Origin: Neoroseomonas alkaliterrae
Lineage (GTDB): Bacteria; Pseudomonadota; Alphaproteobacteria; Acetobacterales; Acetobacteraceae
Length of the DNA: 64,000 nt
Assembly: GCF_014199195.1 (NCBI RefSeq)
Contig: NZ_JACIJE010000013.1
Location: 1-64,000, forward strand
Direction: 5' to 3'
A model generated the notes under the pieces. The model was not told the origin of the DNA. It saw only the letters and a program-made list of their open reading frames with translations, and made no database searches. Position numbers and translations under genes: made by a program. This document shows, in pieces, positions 12,849 through 37,967 of the stretch (the first letter of the stretch is position 1; every line of letters begins with the position of its first letter).

Positions 12849-12872
12849 GGGGTTTGCCTCCCTCTTGTCTCG

Positions 12873-13109: not shown

Positions 13110-13131
13110 GGTCCGTGCCTCCCGGCCTCGC

Positions 13132-13734: not shown

Positions 13735-13770
13735 CTTCAGACCTCGTCCCCGCTCCCCGAAAACCCGATC

Positions 13771-13800
13771 AATCTACTCCGGATCGTGCCCCCGCCGCAA
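13771..13800 (-). promoter_or_regulatory. Candidate promoter of the core formate dehydrogenase operon
   Basis: On the minus strand TTGCGG (13800-13795) is followed after 18 bases by TAGATT (13776-13771), about 37 bases before the torD ATG. The local sequence is clearly more AT-rich than its surroundings. The match to a sigma-70-type promoter is moderate (three of six and four of six positions). Confidence 0.35.
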
Positions 13801-13840
13801 TGCATTGGAGTCGTTGTTCTTTCAGCGGAACCGGCTTGTT

Positions 13841-13859
13841 GTTGCGAATGCTTCGCAAC
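13841..13859. repeat. 8-bp inverted repeat upstream of the formate dehydrogenase operon
   Basis: GTTGCGAA-TGC-TTCGCAAC is a perfect 8-bp inverted repeat with a 3-base spacer. It lies about 40 bases upstream of the candidate -35 element and 20 bases beyond the end of the DUF3306 gene. It could be an activator or repressor site for the operon; a terminator for the DUF chain is less likely, as there is no T-run on the minus strand. Confidence 0.4.
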
Positions 13860-13879
13860 ATCAAATAGAGGCGCCGTAT

Positions 13880-16058: not shown

Positions 16059-16603
16059 CGCGCATTCCTCGCCATCCGCGCGAGGTCGGGGCGCAGCGGC
16101 GGCTCCTCCTCGCCCTCCACCGCCACCGCGGCGAAGACGGGCAGGCTCTCGAAGGCGCGGTGCTCCCGCGGGCGTTCGTGCAGGGTGCGGAAACGCTCGC
16201 GCACGGCGCCATCCTCCAGGCTGCGGCTCAGCGCGACCAGCGTGCCGGGGGGGTGTTCGCAGAGGGATTCGGCGAAGGCGACCTCCTCCTGCGCCGCCGC
16301 GCGCGCCGCCGCCTCGTCCGGGGCGCCGTAGGCGGCGCGCAGATGGGCGGCGAGGGCGGCCACCGCCTCCTCCCGCTGCGCCGGCGTCGCGCTCGCCACC
16401 TGCACCAGCGTGGACCAGCCGAAGGAGGACAGGCCGAGGAAGCCGGCGCGGAAGGCCTGGCGCCGCTTGCCCTCCAGCCTCTCCACCTCCTCGTCCCAGA
16501 AGCAGAAGCCGCCGGGCACGGCCCATTCCCCGGGCTCGGCCGCGCGCGGGAAGACCAGCGCGTCCGAGGGGTCGAGCCGGATGGTGCGCAACAGCCGCGT
16601 CAT
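16055..16603 (-). CDS. DUF6505 protein, formate dehydrogenase cluster
   Basis: A 182-residue cytosolic protein that I assign to DUF6505 from its opening (LLRTIRLDPSDALVF) followed by GEWAVPGGFCFWDEE and a conserved GFLGLSSFGWSTLVQV block near 70. No catalytic motif is recognisable. It is the second gene of the chain, overlapping the DUF4444 gene upstream and the DUF6352 gene downstream by four bases. It appears in genomes with the same set of neighbours, so a joint role with the formate dehydrogenase is inferred. Confidence 0.65.
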   Translation of the reverse strand: MTRLLRTIRLDPSDALVFPRAAEPGEWAVPGGFCFWDEEVERLEGKRRQAFRAGFLGLSSFGWSTLVQVASATPAQREEAVAALAAHLRAAYGAPDEAAARAAAQEEVAFAESLCEHPPGTLVALSRSLEDGAVRERFRTLHERPREHRAFESLPVFAAVAVEGEEEPPLRPDLARMARNAR

Positions 16604-17295
16604 GCCGCGACAGCCTCGGCCAGCGGCCGGCGTTCGCGCGCCGCGCCGCGCTGGATGACGAGATCCCCCGTCGCGGGATCGAGCCCGCGCCGCGCGCCCT
16701 CGGCCAGCGCCGGATCGAGCCGCGCGAGGTAGCGTTCCGCCACCACCCGGAAGCCGCCGGCCTGCCAGTCCGCGAGATTGGCCATCAGGTGGCGCGCCCA
16801 GGCGGCGGTCATCTCGGCCGGCGTCGTCTCGTTGAAGCCTTCCTCGAACAGGGTCGTCCGCCCCGGGTCTCGGCCCGGCTCGGCCTCGGCGACATCGGCG
16901 AAGGCGGCCTCGATCCCGACCACCAGCCAGGGCGGGACCGCCGCCTCCGCGCAACCGGGTGGGGCGGCGAGCTTGGCGCGGCCGACCACGCCGCCATTGA
17001 CGCGGATCGTCGCCGGCCAGTCGAAGGTCAGCGGCACCTCGGGCGGGCCCAGCGCGCCGGCGGCGTCGGCGAAGGCGGCGAGGCCCGCGATCAGCGCCGG
17101 GCGCGCGGCGGCGAGCGGCTGTTCGGGCTCGAGCACCACCGCCGCCTCGATGCGCGACCAGGACCGCACCCAGACGAGGCAGCCCGCGCCGTGGCGCGGC
17201 GCCTCGGCGATGGCGCGCGCCATGGCATCGCCCGCCTCCCGCAGCGGGATGATCGGGCTGAAGACGCTCGGCAGGTCGGGCAGGCCCTCGGACAC
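16600..17295 (-). CDS. Biotin/lipoate ligase-like protein with DUF4444
   Basis: A protein of about 231 residues with a lipoate/biotin ligase-like fold. Visible elements are LVWVRSWSRIEAAVVLEPE near 43-60, a central GALGPPEVPLTFDWP block, and VNGGVVGRAKLAAPP near 100-110, which resembles the ligase substrate-Lys strand. A C-terminal DUF4444-like part follows (RRGLDPATGDLVIQ). The GTG at 17295 is preferred because GAGGGAG lies close upstream; an ATG at 17328 would add 11 residues. It heads the five-gene chain. Which protein, if any, it acylates is unknown; no lipoyl-domain protein lies in the cluster. Confidence 0.7.
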   Translation of the reverse strand: MSEGLPDLPSVFSPIIPLREAGDAMARAIAEAPRHGAGCLVWVRSWSRIEAAVVLEPEQPLAAARPALIAGLAAFADAAGALGPPEVPLTFDWPATIRVNGGVVGRAKLAAPPGCAEAAVPPWLVVGIEAAFADVAEAEPGRDPGRTTLFEEGFNETTPAEMTAAWARHLMANLADWQAGGFRVVAERYLARLDPALAEGARRGLDPATGDLVIQRGAARERRPLAEAVAA

Positions 17296-17381
17296 TCCGC
17301 TCCCTCGCACTCCGGTGACCCGCGGCATATATGCGCCCGGCCCCGCGCGTCCAATCGGGGCCTTGCGGGGGATTTGGGACG

Positions 17382-19427
17382 ATGGGCGGAACGGAGGGGC
17401 GCATCGCCCTGGTGTGCAGCTGCGAGGACAGCATGGTCCTCGACGGGCGGGCGATCGCGCGCGGCTGCGGGGCGGAGCTGCGGACCGCGGAACAGCTCTG
17501 CCAGGCGCAGCTCGACCGCTTCATGGCGGCCCTTGCCACCGGCCGGCCGCTGACGGTGGCCTGCACCGCCCAGGCGCCGCTCTTCGCGCAGGAAGCCGCC
17601 GAGGCCGAGGCCCCCGCACCCGCCTTCGTCAATGTGCGCGAGCACGCGGGCTGGTCGCGTGAGGGCAAGGCCGCGGGCCCGAAGATGGCCGCGCTGATCG
17701 CCGCCGCGGCGGTGCCCATGCCGGCGACGCCGCTGGTGCCGCTCGAAAGCCGCGGCGTGGCGCTGGTGCTCGGCCGCGACGCCGCGGCGCTGGAGGCGGC
17801 GTCGCGGCTGCAGGACAGGCTCGACCTGACGGTGCTGCTGACCGGGGCGGAGGAGGTGACGCCGCCCCGCGCCGCCCCCTTCCCGGTGATGAAGGGCCGC
17901 GCCCGCGCCGCGCGGGGCTGGCTCGGCGCTTTCGAGATCACGGTGGACGGGGCGGCGATGCCCCGCCCCTCCTCGCGCGCGCGCTACGAATGGGGGCCGG
18001 GCAAGGACGGGGCGATCAGCCGCGCCGACATCGTGCTGGACCTCAGCGGCGGGCAGCCGCTGTTCCCCGCCCATGAGGTCCGCCAGGGCTACCTGCGCGC
18101 CGACCCGGCCGATGCGGCCGCCATCGAGCGCGCCATCGCCGCCGCGGCCGAGCTGGTCGGCACCTTCGACAAGCCGCGCTTCGTCGCCTTCGAGGGCGCG
18201 CTCTGCGCCCATGCGCGCAACCGGCGCAAGGGCTGCACGCGCTGCCTCGATCTCTGCCCGACCGGCGCCATCACGCCGGGCACCGGGGAGCGCAAGGACC
18301 AGGTCGAGATCAGCGCCGAGATCTGCGCCGGATGCGGCGCCTGCGCCGCGGTCTGCCCGACCGGCGCGGCGACCTACACCCTGCCACCGCCCGCAGCACT
18401 CGCGGCGCGCCTGCGCGCGCTGCTGCTCGCCTATCGCGAGGCGGGCGGCGAGGCGCCGGTGGTGCTGGTCCATGACGAGGCGCAGGGCGAGGCGATGCTC
18501 GATGCGCTCGCGCGCCATGGGGAGGGGCTGCCGGCGCGCGTGCTGCCGCTGCGCGTGAACGAGCCGACGGCGCTCGACCTCTCGCTGATCACCGGCGCCT
18601 TCGCCTGGGGCGCGAGCGCGCTGCGCGTCCTGCTGCCGGGCCGGCGCAGGCATGGCGCGGAGGGGGTTCTGCGCAACCTCGACTACGCCAATGCGGCGCT
18701 GGCCGGGCTTGGCCTCGGCCACGCGGCGCCGCGCGCGGCCACGATCGAGACGGACGATCCTTTCGCGCTGGGCGAGGCGCTGGCGGCGCTGCCGCGCGCG
18801 CCCTTCGCCTTCGCGCCCTCCACCCACCAGGCGATCGGCACGCCGCGGGAGATGGCGCTGCAGGCCTTCCGCGCGCTGCGCGCCGCCGCGCGCGCGCCGG
18901 CCGGGACGGTGCCGATGCCCGCCCTCGCCCCCTTCGGCGCGGCGCTGGTGGAGACGGGCGGCTGCACGCTGTGCCTCGCCTGCACGAGCGTCTGCCCGAC
19001 CTCGGCCTTCAGCGCCAACCCCGACAGGCCGCAGCTGCGCTTCCTCGAGGATGCCTGCGTGCAATGCGGCCTCTGCGCCGCGACCTGCCCGGAGAAGGTC
19101 ATCACGCTCGAGCCGCGGCTGAATTTCTCCGAGGCCGCAGCGTCGCCGCAGGTGGTCAAGGAGGAGGAACCGGCGGCCTGCCCGCGCTGCGGCAAGCTGT
19201 TCGGCACCAAGGCCTCGATCGCGCGGGTGAAGGCGAAGCTCTCGGCGCACTGGATGTTCGCCGACCCGGCGCGCGCTGCGATCCTGGAGCTTTGCGAGGA
19301 TTGCCGCATCACCGAGGCGACGACGGGCGGGCTCGATCCCTATGCCGGGCCGGAGCGGCCGGTGACGAGGACGACGGAGGACTACCTGCGGGAGGCGGAG
19401 CGGGCGAAGCGCGAAGGCAAGGCGTAG
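17382..19427 (+). CDS. 681-residue multi-[4Fe-4S] protein of the formate dehydrogenase cluster
   Basis: A soluble protein with two pairs of ferredoxin motifs set far apart: CTRCLDLCP and CAGCGACAAVCP (about 284-325), then CTLCLACTSVCP and CVQCGLCAATCP (about 527-567). The C-terminus has CPRC (about 600) and CEDC (about 637), a zinc-ribbon-like pair. The N-terminal 260 residues open with IALVCSCEDSM, contain several single Cys and match no family I can name. There is no signal peptide or membrane helix, so it acts in the cytosol. It is divergent from the DUF chain and its ATG is preceded by a G-rich stretch. A role as an electron carrier or FeS-delivery scaffold for formate dehydrogenase maturation is inferred only from position. 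Confidence 0.8.
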   Translation: MGGTEGRIALVCSCEDSMVLDGRAIARGCGAELRTAEQLCQAQLDRFMAALATGRPLTVACTAQAPLFAQEAAEAEAPAPAFVNVREHAGWSREGKAAGPKMAALIAAAAVPMPATPLVPLESRGVALVLGRDAAALEAASRLQDRLDLTVLLTGAEEVTPPRAAPFPVMKGRARAARGWLGAFEITVDGAAMPRPSSRARYEWGPGKDGAISRADIVLDLSGGQPLFPAHEVRQGYLRADPADAAAIERAIAAAAELVGTFDKPRFVAFEGALCAHARNRRKGCTRCLDLCPTGAITPGTGERKDQVEISAEICAGCGACAAVCPTGAATYTLPPPAALAARLRALLLAYREAGGEAPVVLVHDEAQGEAMLDALARHGEGLPARVLPLRVNEPTALDLSLITGAFAWGASALRVLLPGRRRHGAEGVLRNLDYANAALAGLGLGHAAPRAATIETDDPFALGEALAALPRAPFAFAPSTHQAIGTPREMALQAFRALRAAARAPAGTVPMPALAPFGAALVETGGCTLCLACTSVCPTSAFSANPDRPQLRFLEDACVQCGLCAATCPEKVITLEPRLNFSEAAASPQVVKEEEPAACPRCGKLFGTKASIARVKAKLSAHWMFADPARAAILELCEDCRITEATTGGLDPYAGPERPVTRTTEDYLREAERAKREGKA

Positions 19428-26269: not shown

Positions 26270-27094
26270 ATGCCGACCCTGCCCGACGGAACCGCCATCC
26301 CCGCCCTCGGCCAGGGCACCTGGCACATGGGAGAGAGCCGCGCGGCGCGCGAGCGGGAGGTCGCGGCGCTGCGCCTCGGCCTCGACCTCGGCATGACGCT
26401 GATCGACACCGCCGAGATGTACGCCGATGGCGGCGCGGAGGAGGTGGTGGGCGAGGCCATCGCCGGCCGGCGGGATGAGGTCTTCCTCGTCTCCAAGGTC
26501 TATCCGCACAACGCCTCCCGCCGCGGCGCGGTCGCGGCCTGCGAGCGCAGCCTGAAGCGGATGCGCGTCGGCACGATCGACCTCTATCTGCTGCACTGGC
26601 GCGGCTCGGTGCCGCTGGAGGAGACGGTGGAGGCCTTCGAGGCGCTGCAACGCGCGGGCAAGATCCGCCACTGGGGCGTGTCGAACTGCGACGTGGACGA
26701 CCTCGAGGAACTCGGCCCCGCGCTGGCCCGTTGCGCGACGGACCAGGTGCTCTACAGCCTCGAGCACCGTGGCGCGGAGTTCGACCTGCTGCCCTTCTGC
26801 GCGAGGCACCGCATGCCGGTGATGGCCTATTCGCCGATCGGGCAGGGCGGCAAGCTGCTGCGGCACCGCGCGCTGCACGAGGTCGCCGCGCGCCATGGCG
26901 CGACGCCGGCGCAGGTGGCGCTGGCCTGGACGCTGCGGGATCCGAACATCGTCAGCATCCCCAAGGCGGCCGACCCGGCGCATGTGCGCGAGAATGCCGC
27001 GGCGCGGGAGATCACGCTGACGGGCGAGGACCTCGCGACTCTGGACGCCGCCTTCGCCCCGCCCAGGCGCAAGCGCGGGCTGGCGATGTTGTAG
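26270..27094 (+). CDS. Aldo/keto reductase
   Basis: A 274-residue NADPH-dependent (beta/alpha)8 reductase. The catalytic tetrad is visible: Asp and Tyr in [12 protein letters not shown] near 46-55, Lys in LVSKVYPHN near 78, and His in LYLLHWRG near 109. The cofactor segment [14 protein letters not shown] lies near 235-248. The family reduces aldehydes and ketones to alcohols; the physiological substrate is unclear. GGAGG lies seven bases before the ATG, and TCTAGCCT lies 30 bases upstream as a promoter-like element, so it is probably transcribed on its own. Confidence 0.88.
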
Positions 27095-27110: not shown

Positions 27111-28520
27111 TCAGCGGAACACCGGCACCTCGTCCTGCTGCGGCTCCGGCGCCGGCACCTCGATGCGCACGCTCGCCGGGTCCACCCCCGTGCCGCGGTC
27201 GAGCCAGTAGGTCACGCTCTCGGGCCACATGATGACGATGGCCACGAGCGTGAGCTGCAGGCACAGGAACGGGATGGCGCCCCAGTAGATGTCCTTGGTC
27301 AGCACCTCCTTCGGCGCGACGCCGCGCAGGTAGAACAGCGCGAAGCCGAAAGGCGGGTGCATGAAGGAGGTCTGCAGGTTCACGCAGAGCAGCACGCCGA
27401 ACCAGACGAGGTTGATGTCGAGCTTCTGCGCCACCGGCACCAGCAGCGGCACGACGATGAAGGCGATCTCGAAGAAGTCGAGGAAGAAGGCCAGCAGGAA
27501 GACCGCGATGTTGACCGCCACCAGGAAGCCCGTCTGCCCGCCGGGAAGGTGGCTGAGCAGGTGCTCGATCCAGATCGAGCCGTCCACGCCCTGGAAGACC
27601 AGGGTGAAGACCGTCGCGCCGATCAGGATGAAGATCACCATGGCGGTGATGCGCATGGTGTTGCCCATCGCCTCGAACAGCAGGGCCCAGGTGAAGCGGC
27701 GGTTGATCACGGCGACCACGATCGCGCCCATCGCACCCATCGCGCCCGCCTCCGTCGGCGTCGCGAGGCCGAGGAAGATGGTCCCGAGCACCAGGAACAT
27801 CAGCACCAGGGAAGGCACCATGCCCTTGATGACGCGCCAGTAGAGCGGCCAGCCGCGGATGGTGCGCGCCTCCTCGGGCAGCGGCGGCACCTTCTGCGGC
27901 CAGATCAGGCTGACCACCGCGATGAATGCGAGGAACAGCAGCACCTGCATCATCGCCGGGCCGACCGCGCCGGCATACATGTCGCCCACGCTCTTGCCGA
28001 GCTGGTCGCCAAGCACGATCAGCACGAGGGATGGCGGGATGAGCTGCGCGATGGTGCCCGAGGCCGCGATGACGCCGGTCGCGATGCGCATGTCGTAGCC
28101 GTAGCGCAGCATGATCGGCAGGCTGATCATGCCCATTGCGATCACGCTCGCGGCCACCGTGCCGGTGATCGCGCCCAGGATCGCGCCCACCACGATGACC
28201 GCATAGGCAAGCCCGCCCGGCACCTTGCCGAACAGCTGCCCGGTCCCTTCGAGCAGATCCTCCGCGAGCCCGCAGCGTTCGAGGATCGCGCCCATCAGCG
28301 TGAAGAACGGGATCGCGAGCAGCACCTCGTTCGAGAGGATGCCGAAGACGCGCAGCGGCAGGTTGCCGAGATAGGCCGGGGTGAAGAAGCCGAGCTCGAT
28401 CGAGAGGAAGCCGAAGAACAGCCCGACGGCCGAGAGGCTGAAGGCCACCGGGAAGCCGAGCAGGAGGAAAACCACGAGGCCGCCGAACATCAGCGGCGGC
28501 ATCCATTCGAGGCTGATCAT
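27111..28520 (-). CDS. TRAP transporter large permease (DctM)
   Basis: A 469-residue inner-membrane protein with about 12 helices. Family segments include FPVAFSLSAVGLFFG near 22-36, the SNEVLLAIPFFTLMGAILE loop near 62-80, GTVAASVIAMG and PPSLVLIVLG in the first half, and EAGAMGAMGAIVVA plus LQTSFMHPPFGFALFYLRG in the second. It is the ion-coupled channel of a tripartite (TRAP) importer for organic acids, taurine or similar anions. It follows dctQ by four bases. No DctP binding protein lies in the window. Confidence 0.92.
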   Translation of the reverse strand: MISLEWMPPLMFGGLVVFLLLGFPVAFSLSAVGLFFGFLSIELGFFTPAYLGNLPLRVFGILSNEVLLAIPFFTLMGAILERCGLAEDLLEGTGQLFGKVPGGLAYAVIVVGAILGAITGTVAASVIAMGMISLPIMLRYGYDMRIATGVIAASGTIAQLIPPSLVLIVLGDQLGKSVGDMYAGAVGPAMMQVLLFLAFIAVVSLIWPQKVPPLPEEARTIRGWPLYWRVIKGMVPSLVLMFLVLGTIFLGLATPTEAGAMGAMGAIVVAVINRRFTWALLFEAMGNTMRITAMVIFILIGATVFTLVFQGVDGSIWIEHLLSHLPGGQTGFLVAVNIAVFLLAFFLDFFEIAFIVVPLLVPVAQKLDINLVWFGVLLCVNLQTSFMHPPFGFALFYLRGVAPKEVLTKDIYWGAIPFLCLQLTLVAIVIMWPESVTYWLDRGTGVDPASVRIEVPAPEPQQDEVPVFR

Positions 28521-28524
28521 CGCC

Positions 28525-29073
28525 TCACTGCTCCAGCTTCTCGTAGGCGGCGACGCGCGCCGCATCGTCCTCGATGCCGCGCAGCGCGGCGATGCGCTTG
28601 ACCAGCTCCGCAAGCCCCTGCAGCACCACCAGCGCGAAGCCGAGCGGCAGCAGCAGCTTCACCGGCCAGCGGATCAGCCCCCCGGCATTGGGCGAGACCT
28701 CGGCCCGCAGCCAGGAATCGAGGAAGAAGGGCCAGGTCATCCAGGTGAGCAGCGCCATGCCCGGCAGCAGGAAGAAGACGATGCCGAAGACGTCGATCCA
28801 GAGCCGCGTGCGCTCCGAGGCCATGCCATAGACGAGGTCCACCCGCACATGCCCGTTGCGCCGAAGCGTATGCGCCGCGCCGAGCATGACGATGCCGGCG
28901 AAGAGATACCACTGCACCTCGAGCCAGGCGTTGGAACTGAGCGAGAAGCCGTAGCGCATCACCGCATTGCCCGCGCTGATCGCGCAGGCGGCGAGCACGC
29001 ACCATTCGGCGGCCTTGCCGAAGGCGGCACTCAGCGCGTCCACGCCGCGGCTCAGGCCGAGCAGCGCGCGCAT
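28525..29073 (-). CDS. TRAP transporter small permease (DctQ)
   Basis: A 182-residue membrane protein with four predicted helices (about 20-40, 55-75, 95-118, 140-160). It carries the DctQ-like stretches WLEVQWYLFAGIVMLGAAHTL and NGHVRVDLVYG near 50-80. It scaffolds the DctM channel for docking of the periplasmic binding protein. It is the first gene of the pair and divergent from the Hyf-like operon across about 197 bases, where a minus-strand TTGCAT-N17-TAGGAC stretch near 29169-29197 could be its promoter. Confidence 0.9.
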   Translation of the reverse strand: MRALLGLSRGVDALSAAFGKAAEWCVLAACAISAGNAVMRYGFSLSSNAWLEVQWYLFAGIVMLGAAHTLRRNGHVRVDLVYGMASERTRLWIDVFGIVFFLLPGMALLTWMTWPFFLDSWLRAEVSPNAGGLIRWPVKLLLPLGFALVVLQGLAELVKRIAALRGIEDDAARVAAYEKLEQ

Positions 29074-29270
29074 CTACTCCGTGGCCGGGCCCTTCGAGGC
29101 CCTCTCCCGCTGGCGGCGCATGGCGCCCTGCCCCCCATCTTCTCCCGGCCGCGGACCGGGGCGGCGCCGTCCTAGACCCGGCGCGGGGCCAATGCAAACC
29201 TCCCCCCGGGGCTGGCCTGCCGGTCGGGCGGGGCTTATCCTGTGCGCGTGACTCGGTGCCGACGCCGTCC

Positions 29271-31286
29271 ATGCTGACGGCCCTCGCCCTGCTGGTCGGT
29301 GCGCTGCTGGCGCTCGGCGTCGCCGCGCTGGCGCTCGCCCGCAGCGCCGCAGGGGCGAAGACGGTGCATGGCGCCTGCGTCGGCGCTGGCGCGGTGCTCG
29401 TGCTGGGCGGGCTCGCCGGGCTTTCCGGCGGCGCCACGGCGCTGGACCTGCCCTTCGGCCCGCCTTGGGGGGCGATGCGCCTCGCGCTCGATCCGCTCGC
29501 CGCATGGTTCCTGCTGCCGCTCGGCATCGTGGCCGGCTGCGCCTCCCTCTTCGCGCTGGGCGGGATCCACGGCCCCGTGCCGGCACGGCTGCTTCTGCCC
29601 TGGCCGATCTTCCTCGCGGGCATGCTGCTCACGGTCCTCGCGGCGGACGGCTTCACCCTGCTGCTGGGCTTCGAGGCGATGTCGCTCGCCTCCTGGGCGC
29701 TGGTCGCGCACGATACGGCCGAGGCGGAAAACCGGCGCGCCGCACGCATCTATCTTGGTTTCGCGGGCTTCGGCGGGCTGACCCTGGTGCTCGCGCTGGG
29801 CCTTTCGGCGGGCGGGGCGGGGGATGTCGCCTTCGCGGCCCTGCGGGAGGCGCCGCCGGATGGCTGGCGCGCCGCGGCGGTGTTCGCCCTCGTGCTCGCG
29901 GGTGCGGGGTCGAAAGCCGGGCTGTTCCCGCTGCATGTCTGGCTGCCGCTCGCCCACCCCGCGGCGCCGAGCCACGTCTCGGCGGCGATGTCCGGCGCGA
30001 TGACCAAGGTCGCGCTCTATGTCCTCGTGCGTTTCGCCTTCGACCTGATGGGCGCCGCGCAGCCGCTCTGGCTCGGCATGCCGCTGATCGCCCTTGGCGC
30101 CGCCTCGGCGGTCATCGGTGCGCTGCGCGCGGCGCTGGAGGAGGATGCCAAGACGCTGCTCGCCTGCTCGACCGTCGAGAATGTCGGGCTGATCGCGATC
30201 GGGCTCGGGCTCGCGCTGGCTTTCCGCGGGGCGGACCTTCCCGCGCTGGCCGCGCTCGCCACCGCCGCGGCGCTGCTGCACGCGCTGAACCACGCGGTGT
30301 TCAAGACGCTGCTGTTCCTCGCGGCCGGCGAGGTGCTGCACGGCGCGCTCTCCCGGCGCCTGGACCGCCTCGGCGGACTCATTCACCGCATGCCCTGGAC
30401 GGCCTGGGCGGCGCTGGCGGGCGCGGGCGCCGCGGCGGCGCTGCCGCCGCTCTCGGGCTTCGCCTCGGAATGGCTGCTGCTGCAGGCGCTGCTCGCGGCC
30501 TGGCGGGTCGGCGATCTCGCCTTCCAGATCGGGGTTGCGGCGACGGCGGCGCTTGCGGCGCTGGCGGCCGCGCTCGCCGCCGCGGCGATGGTCCGCTTCT
30601 GGGGGCTGGTCTTCCTCGGCCGCCCGCGCTCGCCGCGCGCGGCGGGCGCAGAGGAGAGCGGCGGCGCGGCGCGCATCGCGCTGCTGGTGCCGGCGGGGCT
30701 GACGGTGCTGCTCGGCCTCCTGCCGGGCGTGATGCTCGACCTGGCCGAGCCGGCGCTGCGCCAGCTCTCGGGCGTGGCGGCGCCGCGCGCGGGCTTCCTT
30801 GCGGTCGGCGCCGCCGATGGCGGGGCGCGCTACTGGCCGCTCGCGGCGGCGCTGCTCCTGGCCGCGGCAGTCGGCGCCGCGCTCTGGGCGGTGCGCCGGC
30901 GGGCACCGCCGGGCATCGCGCGCGGCCCGACCTGGGATTGCGGATTCATCGCCGCGCCGGCGCATCTGCCGTTCGGGGACCCGGCGACCCAGCCCAGCGC
31001 CGCCGGCTTCGCCCAGCCCCTGCGGCGGATGCTCGGCGACAGTCTCCTCGCGGCGCGCGAGCACGTGACCATGCCGCCGCCGGGCAGCACGGCGCCGGCG
31101 CGGCTCGATGCCGGCTTCCGCGATCCCGCGCTCGCCGCCCTCGAAGGCCCGCTGCCGCGCTGGCGGGATGCGGTCGCCGCGCAGGCCGAACGCCTGCGCG
31201 ACCTCTCGATCCGCCAGTGCCTGGGGCTGAGCTTTGGGGCCGTGGTGCTGATGCTCGCGCTGCTCGCCTGGCTGGAGGCGCGCTGA
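29271..31286 (+). CDS. hyfB: Hydrogenase-4 subunit B-like antiporter subunit
   Basis: A 671-residue NuoL/MrpA-like ion-translocating membrane protein with about 16 helices. Conserved charged residues of the channel are present: Glu in LLLGFEAMSLASW near 130, Lys in SGAMTKVALYVLVRF near 245, and a His-rich LLHALNHAVFKTLLFLAAGEV near 335. The last 150 residues follow HyfB (PTWDCGFIA, SIRQCLGLSFG). It is the first gene of a tight operon hyfB-C-E-F-G-I. The start may be the ATG at 29271 or the GTG at 29256; neither has a clear ribosome site. Confidence 0.85.
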   Translation: MLTALALLVGALLALGVAALALARSAAGAKTVHGACVGAGAVLVLGGLAGLSGGATALDLPFGPPWGAMRLALDPLAAWFLLPLGIVAGCASLFALGGIHGPVPARLLLPWPIFLAGMLLTVLAADGFTLLLGFEAMSLASWALVAHDTAEAENRRAARIYLGFAGFGGLTLVLALGLSAGGAGDVAFAALREAPPDGWRAAAVFALVLAGAGSKAGLFPLHVWLPLAHPAAPSHVSAAMSGAMTKVALYVLVRFAFDLMGAAQPLWLGMPLIALGAASAVIGALRAALEEDAKTLLACSTVENVGLIAIGLGLALAFRGADLPALAALATAAALLHALNHAVFKTLLFLAAGEVLHGALSRRLDRLGGLIHRMPWTAWAALAGAGAAAALPPLSGFASEWLLLQALLAAWRVGDLAFQIGVAATAALAALAAALAAAAMVRFWGLVFLGRPRSPRAAGAEESGGAARIALLVPAGLTVLLGLLPGVMLDLAEPALRQLSGVAAPRAGFLAVGAADGGARYWPLAAALLLAAAVGAALWAVRRRAPPGIARGPTWDCGFIAAPAHLPFGDPATQPSAAGFAQPLRRMLGDSLLAAREHVTMPPPGSTAPARLDAGFRDPALAALEGPLPRWRDAVAAQAERLRDLSIRQCLGLSFGAVVLMLALLAWLEAR

Positions 31287-31287
31287 G

Positions 31288-32247
31288 ATGGCCCTCGTCT
31301 GGTCCCTGCTCGCCCAGGCGCTGCATGTCGCGCTGATCCTCGCCGCCGCGCCGGTGCTGGCGGGCGTGGTGCGCTGGCTCAAGGCGCGGATGATGGGAAG
31401 GCGCGGGGCGCATCCGCTGCAGCCGCTGCGCGACCTGCTGAAGCTGCTGCGCAAGACGCCGGTGCTCGCGGAGAACGCCTCCGCCGTCTCGCGCGCCGCG
31501 CCCTATGTGGCGGCGGGTGCGGCGATCGCCGCGGCGGCGCTGGTGCCCTCCTTCGCGCGCGGCATGGCCTTCGCCCCGCTCGCCGACCTGATCCTCGTGG
31601 CCGGGCTGCTGGCGCTCGGGCGCGTGGCCATGGCGCTGGCGGGGATGGATGTCGGCACGCCCTTCGGCGGGCTCGGCGCCGCGCGCGAGATGAGCTTCGC
31701 CGCGCTGGCCGAGCCGGCACTGGTGGTCGTGGCGCTGACGCTCGCCATCCTCGCCGGGACGACGAACCTCGATGCCATCGCCGCGACCCTGCGCGAGGGC
31801 GGGCTCGGCCTGCGCGTCTCGCTCGGCTTCGCGCTGGTGGCGCTGCTGGCGGTGGCGGTGGCGGAGAATGCGCGCATCCCGGTGGACAACCCGGCGACGC
31901 ATCTCGAACTCACCATGGTGCACGAGGCGATGATCCTCGAAGCCTCGGGCCGTCACCTCGCGCTGTGGGAATACGCGGCGATGCTGCGGCTGACGCTGTG
32001 GCTCGCCCTGATCGCGGCGGTCTTCCTGCCCTTCGGCCAGGCGCCGGCGGGGGCGGCGCCGCATCTCTGGATGGTCGGGCTGCTTGCCTGGGTGGCGCAG
32101 ATGGGCGCGCTGGCGCTGGCGCTCGCGGCCTTCGAGAGCGCCATCGCCAAGATGCGCGTCTTCCGCGTGCCGGAGTTCCTCGGCGCGGCGATGCTGCTCG
32201 GGCTGCTCGGCGCGGTGCTGCTCTTCGTCTCCACGAGGCTCACATGA
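31288..32247 (+). CDS. hyfC: Hydrogenase-4 subunit C-like (NuoH-type) membrane subunit
   Basis: A 319-residue membrane protein with about eight helices, homologous to NuoH/HycD, which joins the membrane arm to the peripheral redox arm. NuoH-type motifs visible are QPLRDLLKLLRKTPV near 44-58, a GTPFGGLGAAREMSFAALAEP loop near 127-147 and AENARIPVDNPATHLELTMVHEAM near 192-215, matching the acidic quinone-loop region. One base separates it from hyfB, and its stop overlaps the hyfE start (ATGA). Confidence 0.9.
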   Translation: MALVWSLLAQALHVALILAAAPVLAGVVRWLKARMMGRRGAHPLQPLRDLLKLLRKTPVLAENASAVSRAAPYVAAGAAIAAAALVPSFARGMAFAPLADLILVAGLLALGRVAMALAGMDVGTPFGGLGAAREMSFAALAEPALVVVALTLAILAGTTNLDAIAATLREGGLGLRVSLGFALVALLAVAVAENARIPVDNPATHLELTMVHEAMILEASGRHLALWEYAAMLRLTLWLALIAAVFLPFGQAPAGAAPHLWMVGLLAWVAQMGALALALAAFESAIAKMRVFRVPEFLGAAMLLGLLGAVLLFVSTRLT

Positions 32248-32912
32248 GCTTCGGTCAGCTCGGCTACGATGTCGCGCATCTGCTCGGCGGCGGGGTGCTG
32301 CTGCTCTCCTTCGTGCTGCTCTACCAGCGGCGGATCGGGGCGGTGATCAACGCCTTCGCCATGCAGGGCGCGCTGCTGGCGCTGGCCGCGGCCTGGGCGG
32401 CGCACGCGCAGGGCGTGGCGGGGCTCTACCTGACGGCCATGCTCACCATGGCCGCGAAGGGCGTGCTGATTCCGCTCGCGCTGCATGCCACGGTCCGGCG
32501 GCTCGACCTGCACCGCACGGTGGAGACGGCGCTCGGCATCGGGCCCTCCCTGGTGGCTGGCGTGGGGCTGGTGGCGCTCGCCATCCTCGTGGCGCTGCCC
32601 GCGACCGAGGGCGCGCGGGCGCTGGCGCGCGAGGATCTCGCGCTCGCCCTTTCGGTCGTGCTGCTCGGCATGCTGATGATGATCACGCGACGCAACGCCA
32701 TCAGCCAGGTGATCGGCCTGCTGTCTCTGGAGAACGGGCTGATCCTCGCCGCCATCGGCGTCGCGGGCATGCCGCTGGTGGTCGAGCTCTCGACCGCCGC
32801 GCTGGTGCTGATGATCGCCGTCGTCGCCGCCGTCTTCGCCTTCCAGATCCGCGAGCGCTTCGACACGCTGGACACGGCGAGCCTCGAGGAACACCGCGGG
32901 GAGCGGCGCTGA
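32244..32912 (+). CDS. hyfE: Hydrogenase-4 subunit E-like membrane subunit
   Basis: A 222-residue protein with six or seven helices; the C-terminal part resembles NuoK (NAISQVIGLLSLENGLILAAIG near 152-173, with the membrane Glu in SLENG). Corresponds to HyfE, a subunit of the ion-translocating arm not found in HycCD-type formate hydrogenlyase-1. It overlaps hyfC by four bases and hyfF by one (TGATG). Confidence 0.88.
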   Translation: MSFGQLGYDVAHLLGGGVLLLSFVLLYQRRIGAVINAFAMQGALLALAAAWAAHAQGVAGLYLTAMLTMAAKGVLIPLALHATVRRLDLHRTVETALGIGPSLVAGVGLVALAILVALPATEGARALAREDLALALSVVLLGMLMMITRRNAISQVIGLLSLENGLILAAIGVAGMPLVVELSTAALVLMIAVVAAVFAFQIRERFDTLDTASLEEHRGERR

Positions 32913-34348
32913 TGTCCCTGCAATGGGCCATCGTCTTCCTGCCCTGGCTGGGCGCCGCGGCGCTCGCGGCGGTGCCGCGGCTCCGGCCGGCGACGGCGGG
33001 CAATGTCGCGCTCAGCGGCCTGACCTTCGCCATGGCGCTCGCGCTGGCGGCGCAGCCCTTCGGGCAGGAGGGCTGGACGCGGGTGGACGCGCTGAACCTG
33101 CCCTTCCTCGTGCTCTCCGCCTTCGTCGGGCTGACCACCGCGGTCTTCTCGGCCGCGACGCTCGACCAGGAGGGCTTCGACCACTGGCGCATCCGCGCCT
33201 ACCACGCCGCCTACCAGGTGTTCATGGGCGCGCAGTTCCTCGCCCTGCTTGCGGACAATCTCGGCGTGATGTGGGTGGCGATCGAGATCGCGACCCTCGC
33301 CACCGTCTCCATGGTCGCGGTGCACCGCACGCCCGCCGCCTTCGAGGCGGCTTGGAAGTTCTTCATCCTCTGCGGCGTCGGCATCGCGCTCGCGCTGTTC
33401 GGCACCATCGTGCTCTATCTCGCCGCGCAGCCGCTGCTGCACGAGGAGAACGGGCTGTCCTGGGCGGCGCTGATGCAGGTGGCGCCGGACTGCGCGCCGG
33501 GCACGCTCAACCTCGCCTTCGCCTTCCTGCTGCTCGGCTACGGCACCAAGGCGGGGCTGGTGCCCCTGCATTCCTGGCTGCCCGATGCGCATGCGGAGGG
33601 GCCGGTTCCGATCTCGGCGGTGCTGTCGGGCCTGCTGCTCAACGCGGCAATGCTCGCGGTGCTGCGCGCGAAGTCCATCGTGGGCGCGAACCCGGAGGCG
33701 ATCGCCCCGGGACCGTTCCTGCTCGGGCTCGGGCTCGCCACGGTGACGCTGGCGGCGATCGCGCTGTGGCGGCGGCGCGATGCGCGGCGTTTCTTCGGCT
33801 GGAGCAGCATCGAGCACATGGGGATCGCCGCCTTCGCCTTCGGCCTCGGCGGCGCTGCCGCGAACCTTGCCGGACTGCTCCACCTGCTCGGGCACTCGCT
33901 GGTCAAGAGCGCGGTGTTCTTCGGCGTCGGCCGCGCCGCGCAGGCGAAGGGCAGCCAGAAGATCGCGGACATCCAGGGGCTGGTGACGACGCATCCGGCG
34001 CTCGGCTGGGGCCTCGCCATCGCCATCGCCGGCATCGCGGGGCTGCCGCCGATGCTGCTCTTCGCCTCCGAGTTCCGCCTGCTCTCGGCGGCGGCGGCGC
34101 AGATGCCCTGGCTCGCGCTCGCGCTCGCGCTCGCCATGGTGGTGGCGCTGGCCGCGCTGGTCACGGTGCTGCAGGCGATGTGCTTCGGCCCGCCCACGCC
34201 GGATGCCGCGGGCGCCCTGGATGGCTGGCGCGAGGCCGCGGCCGCCGCGCCGCTCTGGCTGCACCTCGCCGTCGCGACGGCGCTCGCCCTCGCCATGCCG
34301 GCCGGGCTTGCGGCGATGCTCGCCGAGGCGGCACGGGTGATCGGATGA
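32912..34348 (+). CDS. hyfF: Hydrogenase-4 subunit F-like antiporter subunit
   Basis: A 478-residue NuoN/MrpD-like subunit with about 14 helices and probably an ion half-channel. Conserved parts: VAIEIATLATVSMVA near 122-136 (membrane Glu), GTKAGLVPLHSWLPDAHAEGP near 211-231, the SIEHMGIAAFAFGLGG stretch near 302-317 and GHSLVKSAVFFGVGR near 328-342 with its Lys. It overlaps hyfE by one base and hyfG by four. HyfD, the third antiporter-like subunit of E. coli hydrogenase-4, has no counterpart here. Confidence 0.9.
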   Translation: MSLQWAIVFLPWLGAAALAAVPRLRPATAGNVALSGLTFAMALALAAQPFGQEGWTRVDALNLPFLVLSAFVGLTTAVFSAATLDQEGFDHWRIRAYHAAYQVFMGAQFLALLADNLGVMWVAIEIATLATVSMVAVHRTPAAFEAAWKFFILCGVGIALALFGTIVLYLAAQPLLHEENGLSWAALMQVAPDCAPGTLNLAFAFLLLGYGTKAGLVPLHSWLPDAHAEGPVPISAVLSGLLLNAAMLAVLRAKSIVGANPEAIAPGPFLLGLGLATVTLAAIALWRRRDARRFFGWSSIEHMGIAAFAFGLGGAAANLAGLLHLLGHSLVKSAVFFGVGRAAQAKGSQKIADIQGLVTTHPALGWGLAIAIAGIAGLPPMLLFASEFRLLSAAAAQMPWLALALALAMVVALAALVTVLQAMCFGPPTPDAAGALDGWREAAAAAPLWLHLAVATALALAMPAGLAAMLAEAARVIG

Positions 34349-35856
34349 GCGCCGTCTCCCTCATCCGCGCCGGCGCCCCGCAGGGCGCGCGGCCTTTCGA
34401 GCGGCACCTGCTCGGGCCCGAGGCCTGGTCCCGGCTGCCGCAGGCGCTGGCAGCCGATCCCTCGCTGGCGCTGCTCGCCCTCTGGGCCGAGCCGGGCATG
34501 GTCCATGCCGCCTTCCTCGACGAGGCGGCCGGCGCGCCGCTGCTCGCCTCCGTCCCCGCCGAGGGCGGGCGCTACGCGGCCCTCTCGCCCGCGCGCCCCG
34601 GCGCGATCCGCTTCGAGCGCATGATCCGCGACCTCTGGGGCCTGGTCGCCGAGGGCGCGGTGGATCTGCGCCCCTGGCTCGACCACGGCCGCTGGCCGGT
34701 GATGGGCCCGATGTCCGCCAGCCCCGCGCCGATGCCCGGCGCCGAGCCGCCGCAACCGGCGTTCCTGCCGGCCGAGGGCGAGGGCATCCACCAGATCCCG
34801 GTCGGGCCGATCCATGCCGGCGTGATCGAGCCCGGCCATTTCCGCTTCCACATCCAGGGCGAGGTCGTCGTCCGGCTGGAGGCGCGGCTCGGCTACAAGC
34901 ACAAGGGCACGCTCTCGCTCATGCTCGGCAAGTCGCCGCGCGCCGCAGCCGCCTTCGCGGCGCGGCTGTCCGGCGATTCCACCGTGGCCCATGGCTGGGC
35001 CTTCGCCGCGGCGGCGGAGGCCGCGCTCGGCCTCGCCGTGCCGCCGCGCGCCGTCGCGCTGCGCGCGCTGATGGCCGAGCTGGAGCGCATCCACAACCAC
35101 CTCAACGACTGGGGCTTCGTCTGCAACGACGCCGCCTTCGCCTTCCCCCACGCGCGCTGCGGCCTGCTGCGCGAGGGCGTGCTGCGCGCCTGCCAGGCCG
35201 CCTTCGGGCACCGGCTGATGATGGACCGCGTGCTGCCCGGCGGGGTCGCGACCGACCTTGCCCCGGACGGCGCGGCGGCGATCCTCGCGGCGCTCGCGGC
35301 CGTCGAGGCCGAGGTCCCGGCGCTGATGCGGATCTACGAGAGCCATGCCAGCCTTCAGGACCGCGTGGTCGGCACCGGCTTCCTCGACCCCGCCCATGCC
35401 CAGGCCTTCGCCGCCGGCGGATTCGTCGGCCGCGCCTCCGGCCGCCGCTTCGATGCGCGCTTCATGCCGGGCTATGCGCCTTACGACCTTCTGGCCCCGC
35501 CGGTGGCGGTCGAGGCCGGCGGCGACGTGGATGCGCGCGTGCGCGTGCGCGTCGCGGAACTGCGGAACTCCGTCATGCTCGCGCGCCGCCTGCTCGCGGA
35601 ACTGCCGGAGGGCGCGACGATGGCCCCGCTGCCGGAGGGCGGCGGCGAGGGGACGGCGCTGATCGAGGGCTTCCGCGGCGAATGCCTCGCCTGGATGCGG
35701 CTGGACGATGGCGGGCTGATCCGCGGCGTCTTCCTGCGCGATCCGTCCTGGCTGCAATGGCCGCTGCTGGAGGCGGCGATCGAGGGCAACATCGTGGCCG
35801 ACTTCCCGCTCTGCAACAAATCCTTCAACTGCTCCTACAGCGGCGTGGACCTGTGA
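34345..35856 (+). CDS. hyfG: Hyf-like large subunit (NuoC-NuoD type) lacking NiFe cysteines
   Basis: A 503-residue cytosolic-side protein with an N-terminal NuoC-like domain (1-120) and a NuoD/hydrogenase-large-like domain (150-503) containing RLGYKHKGTL near 181. Group 4 hydrogenases bind NiFe with two CxxC motifs. Here the first is Ser209-Gly-Asp-Ser212 (ARLSGDSTVAHG in place of ERVCGICSFAH). The second aligns to Cys496-Ser-Tyr-Ser499 near the C-terminus, so three of four ligands are lost. It therefore cannot bind NiFe in the known way and belongs with energy-converting-hydrogenase-related (Ehr) complexes. Its substrate is unknown. Automated annotation would probably call it NuoC/D or hydrogenase. 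It overlaps hyfF by ATGA. Confidence 0.88.
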   Translation: MSAVSLIRAGAPQGARPFERHLLGPEAWSRLPQALAADPSLALLALWAEPGMVHAAFLDEAAGAPLLASVPAEGGRYAALSPARPGAIRFERMIRDLWGLVAEGAVDLRPWLDHGRWPVMGPMSASPAPMPGAEPPQPAFLPAEGEGIHQIPVGPIHAGVIEPGHFRFHIQGEVVVRLEARLGYKHKGTLSLMLGKSPRAAAAFAARLSGDSTVAHGWAFAAAAEAALGLAVPPRAVALRALMAELERIHNHLNDWGFVCNDAAFAFPHARCGLLREGVLRACQAAFGHRLMMDRVLPGGVATDLAPDGAAAILAALAAVEAEVPALMRIYESHASLQDRVVGTGFLDPAHAQAFAAGGFVGRASGRRFDARFMPGYAPYDLLAPPVAVEAGGDVDARVRVRVAELRNSVMLARRLLAELPEGATMAPLPEGGGEGTALIEGFRGECLAWMRLDDGGLIRGVFLRDPSWLQWPLLEAAIEGNIVADFPLCNKSFNCSYSGVDL

Positions 35857-35863
35857 GGCCGTC

Positions 35864-35920
35864 ATGATCCGCTTCGACGCGACCGGCGCGGCGCCTCCCC
35901 TGCCCCGGAGGCACGCCTGA
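35864..35920 (+). CDS. 18-residue ORF between hyfG and hyfI
   Basis: The 63-base gap between hyfG and hyfI is almost entirely an ATG-started frame encoding MIRFDATGAAPPLPRRHA, whose TGA overlaps the hyfI ATG (TGATG). The ribosome site of hyfI (CCGGAGG) lies inside it. In E. coli hyf the ferredoxin-like hyfH sits at this position. The ORF may be a coupling leader, a remnant of hyfH, or chance; no upstream ribosome site of its own is obvious. Confidence 0.3.
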   Translation: MIRFDATGAAPPLPRRHA

Positions 35921-36453
35921 TGCTCTGGCCCCGGCTCGCCCGCGCCCTGCTCGCGAAGCCGCTGACCGACCCGGCGGTGGCCGCGCCCGCGGAAACCGTC
36001 GCGGCACTCGCCGAGCGGCTGGCCGCCACGGCGCGCGCGCGGCTCGGGCGCAGCCTCGCGATCCGCGAGGTGGATTCCGGTTCCTGCAACGGCTGCGAGC
36101 TCGAGGTGAACGCGCTGCAGAACGTCGCCTACGACCTCGAGCGGTTCGGGCTGCGCTTCGTCGCCTCCCCGAAGCATGCCGACGTGCTGCTGGTCACCGG
36201 CCCGGCCTGCCGCAACATGGCCGAGGCGATGGAGCGCGCGCTCGCCTGCACGCCCGAGCCGCGCTGGGTGGTGGCGGCCGGCGACTGCGCGGTGGATGGC
36301 GGCGTGTTCAAGGCCAGCTACGCGACGCATGGCGGCGTCGGCGCGGTGCTGCCGGTGGACCTGCTGATCCCGGGATGCCCGCCGAGCCCGGCACAACTGC
36401 TCGAGGGGCTGCTGGCGCTGCTCGAGGCCGAGGCGGAGCCGCGCAAAAAATAG
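35920..36453 (+). CDS. hyfI: Hyf-like small subunit (NuoB type)
   Basis: A 177-residue peripheral subunit homologous to NuoB/HycG/HyfI. All four cysteines for the proximal [4Fe-4S] cluster are in place: Cys56 and Cys59 (SCNGCE), Cys123 (GDCA) and Cys153 (PGCPP). So electron transfer through this subunit is retained even though the large subunit lost its NiFe ligands. GGAGG lies seven bases before the ATG. It is the last gene of the operon and is followed at once by a terminator-like hairpin. It partners HyfG at the base of the membrane arm. Confidence 0.9.
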   Translation: MLWPRLARALLAKPLTDPAVAAPAETVAALAERLAATARARLGRSLAIREVDSGSCNGCELEVNALQNVAYDLERFGLRFVASPKHADVLLVTGPACRNMAEAMERALACTPEPRWVVAAGDCAVDGGVFKASYATHGGVGAVLPVDLLIPGCPPSPAQLLEGLLALLEAEAEPRKK

Positions 36454-36540: not shown

Positions 36541-36638
36541 GACGCCCCCCTTATCGCCCCTCCGGCCTCACGGCGCCGTGGCAGCGGCCTTAATTTCCTG
36601 CAACTATTGGAGAATGGGTGGCCCAAGGGAGGTCCCGC

Positions 36639-37967
36639 ATGCCCCCACGCATCCTGCGCGCCGTCCTCGCGGTGGCGGCGCTGTGCCTTCTCGCCGCCGC
36701 GTGGCCCGGGGCGGCGCTCGCGCAGCAGCGGGTCGCGCTCGTCGTCGGCAATGGCGCCTACCGCGCCGTGCCGCGCCTCGCCAACCCGGTAGCCGATGCC
36801 GAAGCCGTGGCGGAGGCGCTGCGCGCCGCCGGCTTCCGCACCGAACTGCTGCGCGATGCCGGCAAGGAAGCCCTCGGGGCCGCGCTGCGCCGCTTCGGCG
36901 CGGCGGCGGAGGGCGCCGAGCTCGCGCTGTTCTACTTCGCCGGCCACGGCATCCAGATCGGCGGGGAGAACCACCTCCTGCCGGTGGATGCGCGCCTCGC
37001 CCATGTGCGCGACGTGGACTACGAGCTGGTCGGCGTGCCGCTGGTGCTGCGGACGATGCAGGGCGCGCGGGCGCGGGTGCTGATCCTTGACGCCTGCCGG
37101 GACAACCCGCTGGCGGCGCAGATGCGCGGCCTCAGCGCGACGCGCTCGGTCGGCCGCGGGCTCGCGCGGGTCGAGAGCGTGGATCTCGGCACCCTGATCG
37201 CCTTCTCGACCAGCCCCGGCGCGGTGGCGCTCGACGGCGCCGGGCGCAATAGCCCCTTCACCCAGGCGCTGGTCCAGCACCTCGCGACCCCGGGGCTGGA
37301 GATCCGCCAGTTGATGACGCGGGTGCGGCGCTCGGTGGTCGAGGCGACGGGCGGGCAGCAGATCCCGTGGGACAACAGCAGCCTGATCACCGAGGTGGTG
37401 CTGCGGCCGGGCCGGGCGCCGGCGGTCGCGGCGGCACCCCCGCCGCCGGCACCGGCCGTCGCGGCGCCGGCACCGGCGCGGCCCCAGGCGCCAGCCCAGG
37501 CGCCGCCTGCCCAGGCCGCCCTCGCGCCCGGCGCCTCGGCCCGGATCATCGAGGTGGCGACGCGGCAGGGCATCCCCCTGCCCAACCCCATGCCGGCGGT
37601 CGCCGCGGCCCGCGGGGCGCATCCGCTGGTCGGCATCTGGGGCGGCGAGGCGCGCTGGAACCGGGCCGGGCGCACCTACATCCTCGCCGTGCTGTCGGTG
37701 GATGCGGCGAGCGGCACGGCGGATGTGCTGATGGGCACCGGCGCCGGCGTGCCCGGCACCATGGCGTCCGGCTACCCGCCCGGCTGGGCGCGCGTCGCGG
37801 CGCGGGTCTCGGGCGGGACGCTGCGCTGGCAGGACGAGCGGGGCGACCTCTACGAGGCCCGGCGGACGGATTTCTTCGGCGAGCTCGTCGAGATCAAGCA
37901 CACGCGGATCGGCGGCGCGCGTGTCGGCAACCCGAGCGGCGAGATCGCGCTGCCGCGGCTCGAATAG
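36639..37967 (+). CDS. Secreted caspase-family (C14-like) peptidase
   Basis: A 442-residue protein with a signal peptide (1-29, ending ALAQ) and a caspase-like p20 domain. The His-Cys dyad is intact: His103 in YFAGHG and Cys153 in DACRDNP, and the family opening RVALVVGNGAYRAVPRLANP (31-50) is clear. A Pro/Ala linker (about 270-310) leads to a beta-rich C-terminal domain of about 110 residues with no name I can give. The ATG has GGGAGG seven bases upstream, which decides against the in-frame GTG at 36618. Bacterial orthocaspases cut after basic residues and are linked to stress or death responses; here export suggests a periplasmic target. Standalone gene. Confidence 0.85.
   Translation: MPPRILRAVLAVAALCLLAAAWPGAALAQQRVALVVGNGAYRAVPRLANPVADAEAVAEALRAAGFRTELLRDAGKEALGAALRRFGAAAEGAELALFYFAGHGIQIGGENHLLPVDARLAHVRDVDYELVGVPLVLRTMQGARARVLILDACRDNPLAAQMRGLSATRSVGRGLARVESVDLGTLIAFSTSPGAVALDGAGRNSPFTQALVQHLATPGLEIRQLMTRVRRSVVEATGGQQIPWDNSSLITEVVLRPGRAPAVAAAPPPPAPAVAAPAPARPQAPAQAPPAQAALAPGASARIIEVATRQGIPLPNPMPAVAAARGAHPLVGIWGGEARWNRAGRTYILAVLSVDAASGTADVLMGTGAGVPGTMASGYPPGWARVAARVSGGTLRWQDERGDLYEARRTDFFGELVEIKHTRIGGARVGNPSGEIALPRLE

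Follow-up and report, generated by a model that had tools for sequence, protein, structure and literature searches.

The hyfBCEFGI operon of Neoroseomonas alkaliterrae and its predicted Hyq/Ehr-type complex lacking the NiFe ligands

The DNA analysed here (the window) is a stretch of 64,000 nucleotides from Neoroseomonas alkaliterrae, positions 1 to 64,000 of contig 13 (NZ_JACIJE010000013.1) of a 4.24 Mb genome with a completeness rating of 100%. Six adjacent or overlapping genes on the forward strand, hyfBCEFGI (29256-36453), form an operon that encodes a predicted six-subunit complex resembling complex I and the group 4 hydrogenases (Table 1). HyfG was matched by PF00346, by NuoD models and, over a short segment, by PF00374. 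HyfE scored 25.3 bits against PF00420 (cut-off 26.1) and 61.9 bits against NF008556, the model for the hydrogenase 4 membrane subunit (cut-off 136; scanned from 32250), and no solved relative of it was found at E 0.001. Counterparts of HyfA, HyfD, HyfH and HyfJ were not found within the operon, nor were genes for NuoE, NuoF, NuoG or NuoI; a separate NuoD is encoded elsewhere in the genome (G000:C9).

Table 1. Positions of the operon, of selected residues of its products and of the genes upstream
Feature	Position	Strand	Description	Basis
Aldo/keto reductase gene	26270..27094	+	Nearest models DkgB, DkgA, YdjG	All NCBIfam matches below cut-off
DctM- and DctQ-like TRAP transporter genes	27111..29073	-	Between the reductase gene and hyfB	DctQ PF04290
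hyfB/hyqB	29256..31286	+	676 aa, antiporter-like membrane subunit	PF00361; relatives 6cfw_H, 7z0s_C
hyfC/hyqC	31288..32247	+	319 aa, NuoH/HycD-like membrane subunit	PF00146; 7z0s_D, E 1.6e-32
HyfC signature loop, residues 199-218	31882..31941	+	H205, E207, H212, E213, E218	
hyfE/hyqE	32244..32912	+	222 aa, small membrane subunit	
hyfF/hyqF	32912..34348	+	478 aa, second antiporter-like subunit	6u8y_H, E 5.6e-28
hyfG/hyqG	34345..35856	+	ATG start, 503 aa, NuoC-NuoD-fusion-like large subunit without NiFe ligands	
HyfG E162	34828..34830	+	Aligns with Glu of HycE and MbhL	
HyfG S209-G210-D211-S212	34969..34980	+	Replaces first C-G-I-C	Alignment to HycE
HyfG R444	35674..35676	+	Aligns with Arg of the PRG motif (HycE)	
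HyfG S497-Y498-S499-G500	35833..35844	+	Replaces second C-Y-S-C	Alignment to HycE
hyfI/hyqI	35920..36453	+	177 aa, NuoB/HycG-like small subunit	PF01058

The former NiFe site, the N2 cluster and the membrane subunits

A profile built from 21 HyfG sequences was searched against solved structures, and the best relative was HycE of formate hydrogenlyase (7z0s_E, E 1.8e-82). The same chain was the top match in the PDB for an AlphaFold model of HyfG (query-based template-modelling score, TMq, 0.90), which points to a HycE fold; the model had a mean predicted local distance difference test (pLDDT) score of 89.2, with residues 134-138 and 157-161 below 50. In HyfG the first motif lies in the context RLSGDSTVAH and the second in NCSYSGVDL. 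The HycE segment D-P-C-Y-S-C-T-D aligns with N495-C496-S497-Y498-S499-G500-V501-D502 of HyfG, with Cys496 opposite the HycE proline, Ser499 opposite the HycE serine, and S497 and G500 at the ligand positions. An earlier reading made from the letters of the window alone (the sequence-only reading) had put Ser209 and Ser212 in place of the first CxxC, which the alignment to HycE confirmed, and had read the second motif as Cys496 followed by Ser499; both residues are present, but the register was one residue off. Its statement that the large subunit has lost the NiFe site was correct and indeed understated, as none of the four ligand positions (S209, S212, S497 and G500) is a cysteine in the window's HyfG and the alignment placed no other cysteine on any of them.

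Conservation was scored in 125 distinct HyfG rows, comprising 129 loci and the window, with identical rows merged. Position 209 was Ser in 124 rows and Cys in one; position 212 was Ser in 100, Thr in 15, Ala in nine and Asp in one; position 497 was Ser in 118, Ala in four, Thr in two and Asn in one; and G500 was Gly throughout. A cysteine at 212, 497 or 500 was thus found in none of the 125 rows. D211 was conserved in 124 rows, and E162 and R444 in every row; we take the glutamate aligned with E162 to be the proton-transfer glutamate of hydrogenases. Because the same motif residues recur across these distinct rows, the loss of the ligands is not a matter of chance. Cys496 was present in 105 rows (otherwise Gly in eight, Ala in six and Leu in six), and a single conserved cysteine of HyfG as a ligand was rejected, since it is not strictly conserved. 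As a control, the large subunit of locus L163, from the HypD-positive genome G228, was aligned in the same way; its CGIC and CYSC motifs were intact, so the alignment detects the ligands where they are present.

HyfI contains six cysteines (C56, C59, C97, C110, C123 and C153) and aligns with MbhJ and HycG, including C56, C59, C123 and C153, which are predicted to hold one 4Fe-4S cluster (N2). C56, C59 and C123 were each found in 111 of 111 rows and C153 in 110, the other row having a gap; loci with short matches (eight for hyfI, three for hyfC) were left out of the conservation rows. In the membrane arm, E140, K220, H234, K299, K350 and E405 of HyfB were conserved in at least 97% of 31 rows of energy-converting-hydrogenase-related (Ehr) complexes, and E125, K213, D225 and E229 of HyfF were likewise conserved. 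In HyfC the buried acids are retained, and in HyfB and HyfF the glutamate and lysines found in antiporter-like subunits. Two further points of the sequence-only reading were thereby upheld: the four Fe-S cysteines of the small subunit are kept in the window's branch, and so are the membrane ion channels, judged by the conserved ionisable residues of HyfB and HyfF.

HyfC carries a signature loop with the core HLELTMVHE and the consensus P-[VI]-D-N-P-x-T-H-L-E-L-T-M-[VI]-H-E-A-M, in a stretch that exceeds its counterparts in E. coli HycD and HyfC by three residues. H205 and H212 were each found in 107 of 109 rows. By homology with NuoH, the loop presumably occupies the position where NuoH, NuoD and NuoB meet, and it should adjoin the changed pocket of HyfG.

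Relatives, retention and decay of the set

The features of the predicted complex place it in the known Hyq/Ehr family. The closest described system is Hyq, the 'endo-hydrogenase' of Azorhizobium caulinodans, encoded by the NifA-dependent genes hyqRBCEFGI (PMC2650096; PMC3357923). In the accessible portions of these two reports, hyq deletion slows diazotrophic growth and alters H2 uptake and evolution; deletion of hyqRBCEFGI gave 15-fold more H2 loss at 20 µM O2, and a hupSL mutant, which evolved 61,000 pmol H2 per 10^9 cells per min under microaerobic conditions, evolved 14,000 once it carried the deletion (PMC2650096; PMC3357923). HyqG was described there as lacking both CxxC motifs and having three conserved cysteines, and its catalytic site was called undetermined by the authors in 2012 (PMC3357923). 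R. leguminosarum was named as a carrier of a Hyq orthologue in the accessible text of the 2009 report (PMC2650096).

Compared by its published description, Hyq shares with the window the gene order B-C-E-F-G-I, the lack of HyfA and HyfD, a large subunit (HyqG, 504 residues) without CxxC, a HyqI with four cysteines, and the homology of the system to Nuo. The same set is found on pRL11 of R. johnstonii 3841 (L143, L104), whose HyfG has 54% best-segment identity to that of the window and carries SGDS and CNKSFNCSYSGHDL. Hyq differs in that hyqR is its first gene, whereas no such gene directly precedes hyfB, where genes for a tripartite ATP-independent periplasmic (TRAP) transporter and an aldo/keto reductase lie instead. 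It also belongs to the nif regulon, whereas the window genome has no NifD and no HypD. The three cysteines described as completely conserved in HyqG across eight genera (258, 491 and 497) probably correspond, by position, to C260, C490 and C496 of the window, which were found in 112, 111 and 105 of the 125 HyfG rows; not being universal, they probably do not form a catalytic set that the enzyme requires. The step from a missing CxxC to an absence of H2 chemistry is contested for this relative, because Hyq has H2 phenotypes in vivo; the window genome, for its part, lacks HypD.

Ehr complexes are described, in the accessible parts of the reports, as group-4-like complexes without NiFe motifs and of unknown function (PMC6349859; PMC10284858; PMC4378227; PMC12342949). 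Those of Nitrospira, Sulfobacillus and Margulisbacteria, matched by description, share with the window the lack of NiFe motifs and the Mrp/Nuo-like membrane subunits, which its operon encodes; some have been proposed to work with formate dehydrogenase, for which the operon of the window gives no support. Formate hydrogenlyase and hydrogenase-4 (E. coli HycE and HyfG) share the fold, the six kinds of subunit, and E162 and R444; by contrast, the HyfG of the window lacks all four NiFe ligands, and its operon has no HyfA, HyfD, HyfH or HyfJ. Complex I shares the PF00346 and NuoD matches of HyfG and the subunit of the N2 cluster; it differs by NuoE, NuoF, NuoG and NuoI and at the positions of Nqo4 His38 and Tyr87, weighed below. 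The mycobacterial 'formate hydrogenlyase-like' locus Rv0082-Rv0087 presumably has the same kinds of gene, and a relative on a Rhodococcus plasmid (L148) has them in the order I-B-C-E-F-G.

HypD (PF01924) had no match in the window genome; the control was positive in four of 14 known genomes. PF00374 matched only HyfG itself there, and NifD had no match. Among 150 genomes surveyed in the order, 46 carried a HyfG orthologue at E <= 1e-150, and HypD was absent in 37 of these. HypD was present in 15 genomes of the order, nine of them carriers, and is therefore not absent from all carriers; NifD (E <= 1e-50) was absent from all 46, and none of the six genomes with NifD was a carrier. The sequence-only reading had called for a check of the Hyp maturation genes: HypD is absent genome-wide, as expected for a non-hydrogenase. 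Together with the absent ligands and HyfG as the sole PF00374 match, this sustains its assignment of an Ehr-type complex over a classical NiFe hydrogenase. The complex is almost certainly a nickel-free member of the Hyq/Ehr family. Since HypD, any other large subunit and NifD are missing, a phenotype in the window genome cannot stem from a Hyp-matured NiFe enzyme or from nitrogenase H2. Within the order, G228 encodes a true group-4-type large subunit (L163) with intact CxxC motifs and is HypD-positive.

The six genes are under purifying selection. The ratio of nonsynonymous to synonymous substitution rates (dN/dS) was 0.02-0.11 for the six genes when close relatives were compared (two sets), 0.07-0.31 among genomes G003, G015 and G021, and 0.14-0.29 between the window and these three. 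HyfG was found in all 34 other genomes of the genus, and the set is kept when it is split: in G045 hyfBCEF and hyfGI lie on different contigs, and in G006, G014 and G019 hyfB lies on a contig apart from hyfCEFGI and is absent from the 5.8-10 kb that precede hyfC. G031 was not counted as split, its contig ending inside hyfE.

In the HyfG tree, relatives of acetic-acid type nest within the Acetobacterales portion (17 rows, support 98/92); the tree was rooted at the midpoint, the branches of NuoD and L040 are long, and the letter composition of ten rows is unusual. At L158 (genome G149, 7920-14559) the reductase gene and hyfG are separated by genes for four short membrane proteins, none of which matches a complex I family, and HyfG and HyfI still match their families, with hyfG-hyfI intact; at L156 two membrane proteins match no complex I family. 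G149 has a single match to the HyfG profile and may lack a complex I NuoD. The N2 cysteines are kept in seven of eight divergent HyfI rows (L040, L156-L162), and no HyfI was found at L039, L041 or L042 by the same search. The exception belongs to genus g72 (L161, L166 and L167, from G107, G123 and G124), where in all three genomes examined HyfI has Gly in place of C56 and C123 and Ser in place of C153; the six frames are open and in order, with dN/dS of 0.09-0.39, lowest for hyfG (0.09-0.14). Its complex has either a non-redox role or is in slow decay.

Proposed mechanism and alternatives

On balance we lean towards a nickel-free, redox-driven pump of the Hyq/Ehr type as the best explanation of the window complex, a reading that rests on sequence; that redox chemistry drives ion pumping in this organism is itself likely. 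Because the operon has no gene for HycF/HyfH, the ferredoxin-like subunit that supplies N2 in formate hydrogenlyase, a free one-electron carrier probably docks at N2: a ferredoxin or flavodoxin would probably bind where HycF/HyfH would sit and exchange electrons with the cluster. The former NiFe pocket, lined by Ser, Asp and Thr and containing E162 and R444, would together with the HyfC loop bind a two-electron/two-proton partner, most likely ubiquinone, and protonation of this partner would drive the channels of HyfC, HyfE, HyfF and HyfB. Of the two partners, a quinone is a tentative candidate, with somewhat less than an even chance, and a ferredoxin-like carrier is slightly more doubtful.

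Several points weigh against this mechanism. I161 and G210 of HyfG occupy the positions of Nqo4 His38 and Tyr87, which we take to be the NuoD residues that touch the quinone head, and their replacement by Ile and Gly led us to reject a complex-I-type site for quinone. No ferredoxin gene recurs beside the complex in the neighbourhoods examined. The hyfB match of G014 contains one stop codon. The published Hyq phenotypes concern H2. Finally, the loss of three of the four N2 cysteines in g72, with six open frames, is unexplained by a purely redox role unless that lineage is decaying.

The same genus supplies the case for a complex with no redox chemistry left, in which the antiporter-like arm moves ions or is structural and HyfG and HyfI serve as a cap or regulator: its six genes remain open and ordered despite the loss of the three HyfI cysteines. 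In the window's branch, however, a single gap is the sole exception to the retention of the N2 cysteines, and the rows of acetic-acid type lose parts in the reverse order, the N2 cysteines being kept in seven of eight divergent rows although four membrane subunits of L158 and two of L156 have lost their match to complex I families. A non-redox role is therefore judged unlikely for the window complex.

Less probable again is the activity claimed for Hyq, that of an endo-hydrogenase (H2:quinone oxidoreductase), with a site of unknown metal or no metal that does without the four cysteines. The H2 phenotypes of the A. caulinodans hyq deletion, although HyqG has no CxxC, speak for it (PMC3357923, accessible portion), as does the retention of the hydrogenase residues E162 and R444. 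The support given for Hyq in the accessible parts of the reports is whole-cell genetics, with no activity of a purified enzyme described there, and a changed flow of electrons to nitrogenase, or another source of H2, could produce the phenotype. The three HyqG cysteines, moreover, fall short of complete conservation in the 125 rows, and a genome without HypD and NifD offers neither NiFe maturation nor nitrogenase H2. Should the H2 phenotype of Hyq be direct, the family would be a nickel-free hydrogenase, a complex-I-like pump handling H2 or hydride. Its site would then be built of Ser, Asp and Thr from S-G-D-[ST]-T and N-K-S-F-N-x-S-Y-S-G-x-D-L of HyfG and from H-L-E-L-T-M-V-H-E of HyfC, with E162 and R444 retained; we consider this very improbable.

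Formate dehydrogenase (FDH) was examined as a partner of the complex. An FDH-type cluster with MoeA, MobB, TorD-like and ferredoxin-domain genes occupies 6420-19427 of the window. Its catalytic gene (9909-12848) is separated from hyfB by 16.4 kb and from hyfG by 21.5 kb, where the sequence-only reading had given about 12 kb; of the genes with ferredoxin-type domains, the nearest ends at 19427, at a distance of 9.8 kb from hyfB. An FDH 16 kb upstream that feeds the complex would agree with what has been proposed for Margulisbacteria and Saganbacteria (PMC6349859, accessible portion) and with the TorD-like, MobB and MoeA genes of the cluster. Outside the genus, however, FDH and HyfG are distributed independently: in 64 genomes (HyfG at >=45% identity, the window FDH at >=55%) HyfG was found in 17 and FDH in 12, with both in six, HyfG only in 11, FDH only in six and neither in 41. 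Within the genus the window FDH was missing from three of the 34 other genomes (G011, G013 and G022, 83% complete). In G001, G010, G018, G020 and G021 FDH lies on a different contig from HyfG. The N-terminus of the catalytic subunit resembles, by eye, a twin-arginine translocation (Tat) signal, which would put the enzyme on the opposite face of the membrane. FDH was rejected as the partner on co-occurrence and contig positions, and the hint of a formate link given earlier found no support; such a coupling is highly improbable. A decaying relic without function, for which one might cite the decay in relatives that nest, on the tree, within this family's Acetobacterales clade, is the least probable reading of all and was rejected on the dN/dS of 0.02-0.31 for the six genes in the genus, the presence of HyfG in every genome of it and the retention of the genes when split.

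Many aerobic Proteobacteria carry Hyq/Ehr complexes, and one published assignment, to H2, is at odds with the missing NiFe ligands. Residues worth testing are indicated by the HyfC loop, the invariant positions of HyfG and the decay series. In evolutionary terms, the nickel-free redox-driven pump would be a complex-I-type machine kept under selection after the loss of its catalytic metal, and one genus has apparently lost the last cluster too. The present analysis adds the HyfC signature loop, the candidate link to the upstream reductase gene and the decay series, for which no open-access report was found in searches that were not aimed at these by name.

Neighbouring genes

The reductase survey covered 129 genomes listed down to E 7e-51, some of which carry divergent copies and at least one of which (G228) encodes a genuine NiFe enzyme. 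Among the matches listed, both genes were present in 106 Acetobacterales genomes. In 53 of these the reductase gene shared the strand of hyfG and lay upstream of it by less than 10 kb; in 16 it was elsewhere on the contig and in 37 on another contig, and contig breaks may conceal further links. For 38 of these 53 genomes the interval to hyfG was 3.8-5.5 kb, which roughly equals hyfBCEF in length, so that the reductase gene should directly precede hyfB there. At L038, L053 and L056 it was found immediately upstream of hyfB, so that the TRAP transporter genes of the window were probably inserted between the two; DctM was named from sequence and position, having no NCBIfam match. In G045 the reductase gene is oriented against hyfG, 1.5 kb away from it. 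The apparent association of this gene with the complex is taken as a lead.

Open reading frames (ORFs) around 124 loci were clustered in a search for conserved neighbours beyond the order. Besides the complex, mostly transporters and generic genes were recovered, together with a helix-turn-helix gene (16 loci) and a spermidine-synthase-like gene (nine loci); no shared redox partner was found among these clusters, for which ORF calling was crude in GC-rich DNA, and some clusters were wrong-strand ORFs of hyf genes. The caspase-domain (PF00656) gene directly after hyfI in the window (36618-37967) was rejected as part of the unit, as it stands beside the operon in three of 20 same-genus or near loci (L047, L049, L061). 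A weak tRNA-like call at 16645-16712, which lacks a defined anticodon and overlaps a gene of the same orientation that encloses it, is probably spurious. Annotated plasmid relatives of the complex were found in Rhizobium, Azospirillum, Methylovirgula, Methylocalor, Burkholderia, Rhodococcus and Variovorax, with the same kinds of gene and varying neighbours; the HyfE gene of Azospirillum was detected by tblastn and is not in the annotated listing, and the C. metallidurans record carries no annotation. On the Methylovirgula plasmid pHY1 (L145) the complex adjoins fae and a second cluster of F0F1 ATP synthase genes, presumably arranged in an order resembling that of the N-ATPases.

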